Assembly (NCBI GenBank): GCA_000010565.1
Contig: AP009389.1
Coordinates: 1,302,001 to 1,366,000, forward strand
Direction: 5' to 3'
DNA length: 64,000 nucleotides
From: Pelotomaculum thermopropionicum SI
Lineage (GTDB): Bacteria > Bacillota > Desulfotomaculia > Desulfotomaculales > Pelotomaculaceae
Below the pieces are notes generated by a model. That model saw nothing but the letters and a program-made list of their open reading frames with translations, was not told the DNA's origin and made no database searches. Of the stretch, positions 42,794 through 63,349 are shown piece by piece. Positions within the stretch are counted from its first letter, which is position 1; the number at the start of each line of letters is the position of its first letter. The position numbers and the translations under genes are program-made.

Positions 42794-43822
42794 TTGTCGG
42801 ACAGGCAAAAGGCCCTGGAACTGGCGCTGATGCAGATCGAGCGGCAATTCGGAAAAGGTTCCATCATGAAGCTCGGCGAGGCATCGGCCAAGTTAAATGT
42901 TGAGGTAATACCAACCGGAGCTCTTGCCCTGGATATAGCCCTAGGCGTGGGAGGGGTGCCCCGCGGCAGGGTAATCGAGATATTCGGACCGGAGTCGTCC
43001 GGGAAAACCACGGTCGCCCTCCATGTTATAGCCGAAGCTCAGAAAATGGGCGGAACGGCGGCTTTTGTGGATGCCGAGCATGCCCTCGATCCGGTTTACG
43101 CCAAAAATTTGGGAGTAGATATTGAAAACTTGCTGGTGTCTCAGCCGGATACGGGCGAGCAGGCGCTGGAGATTGCGGAAGCCCTGGTCCGCAGCGGGGC
43201 GGTGGATGTTATTGTGGTGGACAGCGTGGCTGCCCTGGTGCCGCGCGCTGAGATCGAAGGAGAGATGGGGGATGCTCACGTCGGGCTGCAAGCCCGCCTG
43301 ATGTCGCAGGCCTTGCGCAAGCTTACCGGGGCGATCAGCAAGTCAAGAACCACCGTGATTTTTATCAACCAGATCAGGGAAAAAGTAGGTGTGGTGTATG
43401 GTTCGCCGGAGACCACCACAGGCGGACGAGCCCTGAAGTTCTACGCTTCTATCAGGCTGGAGGTGCGGAAACAGGAAAACATCAAACAGGGGACCGACAT
43501 TATAGGCAGCCGCACCAGGGTAAAGGTGGTAAAAAATAAGGTTGCCCCTCCTTTTAAGCAGGCCGACTTCGATATCATGTACGGAACGGGAATATCCAAA
43601 GAGGGAAGCATCCTGGATATGGCAACGGAATTGAACATTGTCGAAAAAAGCGGGGCCTGGTATTCCTTTGGGGAGGAAAGGCTGGGCCAGGGCCGGGAAA
43701 ATGTCAAGGAGTACCTGAGAGAGCATCCTGAAATTACAAGGGAAATTGAGCGCAAGGTGCGCCAGGCCCTTAACGTGGGCGGTTTTAAGGCGCCTGCCGC
43801 GACTGTTTCCGAAGAGGGCTGA
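42794..43822 (+). CDS. recA: Recombinase RecA
   Basis: RecA forms filaments on single-stranded DNA, drives strand exchange and triggers LexA cleavage. The 342 residues include Walker A GPESSGKT at about 66-73, DAEHALDP and the L2 region [24 protein letters not shown] 42794 is chosen because AAGGGGAG precedes it. The frame continues up to 42746, but that stretch contains the LexA box and is unlike RecA. No intein is present. Confidence 0.96.
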
Positions 43823-43856
43823 ACTTTCCGGCCGGAAGGGAAAAAAGGGTTAAACC

Positions 43857-43885
43857 TTGACAGCCGGTAAAATAAACTGTACAAT
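43857..43885 (+). promoter_or_regulatory. Promoter of the 6S-like RNA
   Basis: TTGACA (43857-43862) and TACAAT (43880-43885) are 17 bases apart. The predicted start near 43892 coincides with the 5' end of the structured region. Confidence 0.75.
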
Positions 43886-43891
43886 AGGGGT

Positions 43892-44100
43892 TGGGAGAAA
43901 ATAGAATTAGATACTACTTATAAGGGTTTTATAATAGATAAAATCCAATAGTTTCGGAGGTAGGAATTTGGCCGGAAGCCAGCCGGCCGGATTATTAGGT
44001 TAGTGCCCGTTTTGCAGGGGCCATTTTCTTACCATGATCTGGACAAGTATAAAGGTAGTATCTGTTCGTTTTCTACCGAGGTTCAACTCGGTTATTTTTT
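43892..44100 (+). ncRNA. Structured ~200-nt RNA with 6S-like architecture
   Basis: The 5' and 3' ends pair in a long stem. 43896-43901 pairs with 44069-44074, 43904-43906 with 44065-44067, and 43909-43917 with 44055-44063. Inside is an asymmetric bubble whose left side holds a 9-bp hairpin (43924-43932 with 43938-43946). An inner helix (43959-43966 with 44026-44033) leads to two apical hairpins. The unit has its own promoter and terminator and a length near 180-200 nt. Closing stem, central bubble and terminal stem are the hallmarks of 6S RNA. A rny leader element is the main alternative. Confidence 0.55.
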
Positions 44101-44101
44101 T
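44075..44101 (+). terminator. Intrinsic terminator of the 6S-like RNA
   Basis: ACCGAG pairs with CTCGGT around a 6-base loop, followed by TATTTTTTT. It ends 41 bases before rny. Confidence 0.85.
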
Positions 44102-44141
44102 GTAATACAAAAAAGAAATTTTTTAAGGGAGGTGAATTGCA

Positions 44142-45680
<1,539 letters not shown>

Positions 45681-63182: not shown

Positions 63183-63331
63183 CTTAACAGGGGCAAAAAC
63201 AGCCGAATCCCGGAAAATTACCAACCGGGTACGGGGGAACCATTTTTTAGGGGTGAATCCCAACTCACATCTCACATCTCATAGGGTAGGATATCTTTTA
63301 CCGAACCCGTCAGCTAACCCCGGAGGCGAAA
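63183..63331 (+). promoter_or_regulatory. Cyclic di-AMP riboswitch (ydaO/yuaA type)
   Basis: The conserved ydaO strings appear in the correct order: AACAGGGGC and AGCCGAATCCCGG near the start, ACGGGGGAACCA (about 63231), AGGGGTGAATCCC (about 63249), TAGGGTAGGAT, then CCGAACCCGTCAGCTAACC (about 63302-63320). This class binds c-di-AMP and normally turns wall, osmotic and spore-germination genes off when the ligand is high. It sits between a promoter and a secreted CAP protein. I see no clear intrinsic terminator after it, so control may be at translation. Confidence 0.88.
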
Positions 63332-63349
63332 AAGAAAGGGGATGTGTTA

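Follow-up and report, generated by a model that had tools for sequence, protein, structure and literature searches.

The RNA encoded directly upstream of the RNase Y gene (rny) in Pelotomaculum thermopropionicum SI is, in our judgement, quite probably the 5′ leader and attenuator of that gene, and it belongs to a new RNA family found in Desulfotomaculum-type Firmicutes and in some lineages close to them. The analysis of the window, a stretch of 64,000 nucleotides of this genome, together with its homologues shows computationally a promoter, a closing stem (P1), an intrinsic terminator, the conservation of the element and its exclusive link to rny. A cis role for rny is well supported, and the leader probably controls how much RNase Y is made. 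A first-pass annotation made from the letters of the window had described the element as a stand-alone structured RNA with a 6S-like architecture; the 6S reading is mostly refuted by the results given below.

Results

Promoter, fold and closing stem of the leader

All features of the leader and of rny lie on the + strand and are numbered along the window. The sigma-A-type promoter TTGACA-17-TACAAT that had been claimed in the first-pass annotation is present at 43857-43885 and matches the consensus at 11 of 12 positions; the same score of 11/12 was obtained with 89 of 90 homologous leaders, and the spacer is 17 in 82 of the 90. In 74 of 90 homologues a near-invariant 5′ word begins 7 nt past the -10 box, and we set the transcript start of the window at the same distance, giving a predicted leader RNA that runs from its GGGAG start at 43893 to the U-tract ending at 44101 (covariance-model match 43893-44095, 199 bits). 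When the 245 nt from 43857 to 44101 were folded, as the annotation had proposed, the energy was -75.7 kcal/mol compared with -57.8 +/- 4.4 kcal/mol in dinucleotide shuffles (z -4.07), and none of 200 shuffles folded as well. The long closing stem was found as well: 43893-43917 (5′ strand) pairs with 44055-44077 (3′ strand), and the last bases of the latter, ACC, are common to P1 and the terminator.

Both strands of P1 are supported by covariation. In an alignment fitted to the covariance model, which leans toward that model, changes on both sides were observed at 8 of 8 pairs of upper P1, and the covariation score of the whole structure was 0.206, as against 0.097 with shuffled sequences and at most 0.042 when the structure was slid. 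Since one-base shifts spoilt the alignment of the joined P1 arms, we used an independent arm-swap test, in which the 5′ arms of 16 dissimilar representatives were paired with 3′ arms from other genomes. The mean duplex energy was -11.6 kcal/mol for the native arms and -6.2 kcal/mol for the swapped ones, and this was matched in 0 of 100,000 permutations; the native arms pair so much more strongly than the swapped ones that P1 has to be regarded as real, and the covariation of the closing stem, for which the annotation had suggested a check, is confirmed. Automatic RNAalifold runs on MAFFT alignments were uninformative because the leader interior does not align, and they were replaced by a hand-set structure and the covariance model.

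The interior of the leader is branched and variable. The left wall carries the 9-bp hairpin that had been claimed, P2 (GGGUUUUAUAAUAGAUAAAAUCC, 43924-43946), which is paired in 91% of cells of the model-fitted alignment; it is clear in the family of the window and its neighbours, and 47 of 91 leaders match a simple pattern for it. The inner domain (43953-44043) consists of P3, in which 43953-43966 pairs with 44026-44043, bearing the hairpins P4 (GGCCGG...CCGGCC, 43967-43992) and P5 (GUGCCC...GGGGCC, 44000-44023). P4 is seen in the centroid fold and has equivalent hairpins in homologues, and both the inner domain as a whole and P5 were recognized by homologue comparison. Thus an inner helix with branches, as annotated, exists, but its two apical hairpins lean on the homologues more than on the window sequence, because the minimum-energy and centroid structures of the window disagree in their apical details. 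The sequence and size of the inner domain differ strongly from family to family, and homologous leaders are between 127 and 367 nt long. P3, P4 and P5 are supported inside the family and are changed or lost elsewhere, so that the overall plan drawn in the first pass is a family-level detail and not the conserved core. When the aligned leaders were inspected by eye for a conserved leader peptide, no common start codon or reading frame was seen.

The terminator and read-through to rny

The intrinsic terminator is present at 44075-44101 as claimed: ACCGAG-6-CTCGGT (stem ACCGAG/CUCGGU) spans 44075-44092 and is followed by a T-rich stretch to 44101, the U-tract of the RNA. Its stem is paired in 100% of cells (86 sequences), and a median of 41 nt separates the terminator from the rny ribosome-binding site. 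In the window this site (GGGAGGTG, 44127-44134) aligns with that of the homologues, and rny extends over 44142-45680. The position of the ATG of relatives is occupied here by CTG (44142-44144), where we placed the start; TTG at 44138 runs into a stop, and the mechanical open reading frame begins only at TTG 44184.

A consensus scan of the homologous leaders for a promoter between the terminator and the ribosome-binding site gave scores equal to those of shuffled sequence. Since no better-than-chance promoter follows the terminator, rny must, as judged from the sequence, be transcribed through it, either from the leader promoter or from further upstream. Read-through control of rny, which the earlier annotation had mentioned as an additional possibility, is likely to be the very point of the RNA. 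In computed nascent folds that reach the first arm of the terminator, its CC pairs with the 5′ GG with a probability of ~1.0 in class members. As soon as the second arm has been transcribed, the terminator prevails, keeping 0.64 to 1.0 in the computed folds even with P1 formed. The overlap of P1 with the terminator is restricted to the outer GG:CC pairs and the terminator still wins in equilibrium folds, so the GG/CC overlap may have a modest effect only. Truncated folds revealed no antiterminator other than the 5′ GG.

These observations bear on the main alternative to autoregulation by RNase Y, a mechanism taken up in the Discussion. A metabolite or a protein could bind the conserved 5′ part (P1 with P2) and thereby set termination, RNase Y not being the signal. 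The terminator, the 5′ word and the P2 loop are conserved and P1 overlaps the terminator, which suits such a sensing attenuator, but a conserved aptamer-like core is lacking, the interior varies in sequence and size, and the 5′ GG is the only alternative antiterminator partner seen. We regard a ligand- or protein-sensing attenuator as unlikely, albeit the least unlikely of the competing explanations.

The leader is linked to rny and not to recA

Homologous DNA was found in all 24 other genomes of the same family that were searched, with best E-values of 3e-58 to 5e-21, a degree of conservation well above what chance would give. A covariance model built from ten genomes of the family was searched against 113 genomes, a set that here makes up both the order and the class, and exactly one copy was found in 86 of them; among the 27 genomes with no model match some are incomplete, and in others the leader may have disappeared or been altered. 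All checked copies in the class lie directly upstream of rny on the same strand. Fourteen loci at which no recA was found nearby nevertheless have the RNA in front of rny, so that rny, not recA, is the linked gene. The annotated placement between recA and rny therefore holds for the rny side, while the pairing with recA is incidental, the two not being adjacent in several families. In the window the stretch from recA to the leader (43823-43856) is free of genes; many relatives carry one there, probably recX. At two loci the leader looks interrupted or enlarged: at L152 (G047) a search of the 520 bases preceding rny did not find the 5′ word, and at L137 (G072) the leader measures 367 nt with a long extra segment. 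Weak matches at L121 and L244 were dismissed as chance.

The rny link was also obtained by an independent scan of ~85,000 species genomes for the promoter and the first 14 transcribed bases, in which rny was not used. Of the 62 places returned, 55 lie before rny and 6 are truncated by the end of a contig. The remaining place, in a Lachnospiraceae bin, is spurious, having neither a terminator nor rny; accordingly 55 of the 56 evaluable places precede rny. Carriers include Pelotomaculum, Desulforamulus, Desulfoscipio, Desulfofundulus, Desulfotruncus, Sporotomaculum, Desulfovirgula, Desulforudis and Ammonifex. Searches of the phylum found the same arrangement of leader and rny in further families outside the class, and bins of Thermincola ferriacetica carry the leader before rny with a variant of the word found outside the class. 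The label "stand-alone" has accordingly to be dropped, the element being tied to rny in every evaluable case except for chance matches.

A strong promoter and a terminator of its own, with a terminated product of ~200 nt to be expected, would also fit a trans-acting small RNA whose gene lies before rny by chance and is kept there by operon structure, rny being transcribed from elsewhere. Against this reading, the element stays with rny without exception in many families, though its other neighbour changes, each genome has a single copy, the interior is not conserved, and no promoter-like site that could serve rny lies past the terminator. We consider a trans-acting RNA improbable.

The element is not the 6S RNA of this genome

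A 6S RNA is ~200 nt long with a closing stem, a bubble, an inner helix and its own promoter and terminator, and this resemblance underlies the proposal that the element is a 6S RNA, or a second 6S paralogue, and as such would mimic an open promoter, bind RNA polymerase holoenzyme and template product RNAs. The Rfam 6S model, the check that had been suggested, gave no RF00013 match at E<=10 in 43600-44400, and in the leader region no Rfam family matched at gathering level and none meaningfully at E<=10. The canonical 6S RNA of this genome lies elsewhere (L001:1501-1686, that is G000:C1:1081845-1082030; 128.8 bits) and was the sole RF00013 locus in the whole-genome search. We read the gene directly upstream of it, from its sequence, as aspS; in B. 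subtilis, 6S-1 occupies the equivalent position. Altogether 39 of the 41 genomes searched, that of the window included, have a 6S RNA above the cut-off, separate from the rny leader. 6S paralogues do occur in the class, since G020, G026, G034, G035 and G039 have two or three matches each. The branched interior of the predicted folds and the leader lengths of 127 to 367 nt are also unlike the rod of 6S RNA, which has a closing stem, a central bubble and a single terminal stem and a nearly constant length of ~180-200 nt, and the location of the element is fixed before rny. Taken together, a 6S function is very hard to maintain for this RNA.

A near-invariant word at the 5′ end

The first transcribed bases form the near-invariant word GGGAGAAANUAGAAY (43893-43907). 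Over 91 distinct leaders nucleotide 9 is free, nucleotides 3, 13 and 15 vary in 3-8 leaders and the others in 0-1, frequencies that are partly selected because the leaders were collected by the presence of the word; two class members with a covariance-model match carry the variants GGGAGAAAATTGAATT and GGGAGAAAATACGATT. In 399 genomes of the phylum, an rny gene preceded by the word was found only in the class and in a small number of neighbouring families. Copies from outside the class retain the upper part of P1, and pairing in its lower part is poor; they nevertheless keep the 5′ word, which therefore does more than form P1. The -10-like TAGAAT at the 5′ end could suggest a sigma-dependent promoter-proximal pause, but this is not favoured, as the last T is C in 8 of the 91 leaders.

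5′-terminal stems stabilise mRNAs in Firmicutes, and in the predicted folds the 5′ end is covered by P1. The leader could accordingly be a passive stabiliser, whose closed 5′ end shields the mRNA against decay from that end and whose terminator only lowers basal expression, with no regulation involved. A stem alone, however, leaves unexplained both the near-fixed word, which is found on well-paired and poorly paired copies alike, and the strictly kept terminator. This explanation appears to us doubtful, if slightly less so than that of a trans-acting RNA.

Discussion

We infer that the terminator and the 5′ end of the leader together set the level of rny. As to the mechanism, we tentatively favour autoregulation, in which RNase Y itself acts on the 5′ end of the leader, although we would put its chance at somewhat below even. 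RNase Y of B. subtilis cleaves the mRNA that encodes it and so restrains its own production, the cuts in the 5′ UTR being strongest within the first 50 nt (PMC10303841). RNase Y has a preference for G|A where the RNA is AU-rich and weakly structured (PMC11780869), and a downstream hairpin aids cleavage by RNase Y of S. aureus (PMC11321564). Autoregulation is favoured because of this self-limitation, this preference and the UAG|AA contained in the 5′ word, but G|A sites are common and the match of the leader to the preference is therefore weak.

Under autoregulation, transcription would start at the GGGAG of 43893 and the leader would fold into the covarying P1 around a variable branched interior, with the terminator ~40 nt before the rny ribosome-binding site. 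The rny mRNA would arise by read-through, and the terminated product would be an RNA of ~200 nt. As long as the distal end of the leader has yet to be transcribed, the conserved 5′ end would remain single-stranded and present a G|A site in an AU-rich context (UAG|AAY). Idle RNase Y could cut there, exposing the transcript to 5′ decay and at the same time taking away the 5′ GG, which would otherwise be paired to CC in the terminator stem. With the enzyme scarce or occupied, P1 would retain the 5′ end, and more full-length rny mRNA would survive or read through. In a more specific and rather speculative form, less likely than a sensing attenuator, the RNA might gauge the free RNase Y capacity co-transcriptionally, the competition of the enzyme and of P1 formation for the 5′ end deciding terminator read-through.

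Leader-based control of this kind is already known, and the rny leader is a new family of it. We found no earlier description in the journals that the literature search covered, and no Rfam family. In T-boxes, riboswitches and ribosomal-protein leaders, as here, a promoter is followed by a structured leader, an intrinsic terminator and the gene, whereas the rny leader contains no Rfam aptamer and its terminator overlaps only with its own 5′ GG. A riboswitch proper also lies in the window, for c-di-AMP (RF00379), at 63191-63343 (87 bits). The 6S RNA (RF00013) shares with the leader its length, its own promoter and terminator and a closing stem with a bubble, but differs in the absence of a model match for the leader, in genomic place and in the branched and variable interior of the leader. 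Enterobacteria have a structured leader, rne5 (RF00040), on the mRNA of their main decay endonuclease, RNase E; the enzyme and the phylum are different, and the rny leader has no Rfam match and has an intrinsic terminator before the gene. The self-control systems of RNase E and RNase Y are contrasted in PMC10303841. A related system is found on the same gene, the B. subtilis rny 5′ UTR likewise being a long leader with a sigma-A promoter; it differs in its length of 164 nt, in its control by mRNA decay and in being cut also in the open reading frame, and no terminator or closing stem is mentioned in the sections of the description that were consulted (PMC10303841).

In many Firmicutes most mRNA decay is initiated by RNase Y, and a leader that is conserved throughout a class and also beyond it, and that has no counterpart in Rfam, gives a concrete, testable handle on how the level of this enzyme is set. 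Together with RNase E in enterobacteria and RNase Y in Bacillus, the different architecture seen here suggests that control of the main decay nuclease through a leader on its own mRNA is a recurrent solution.
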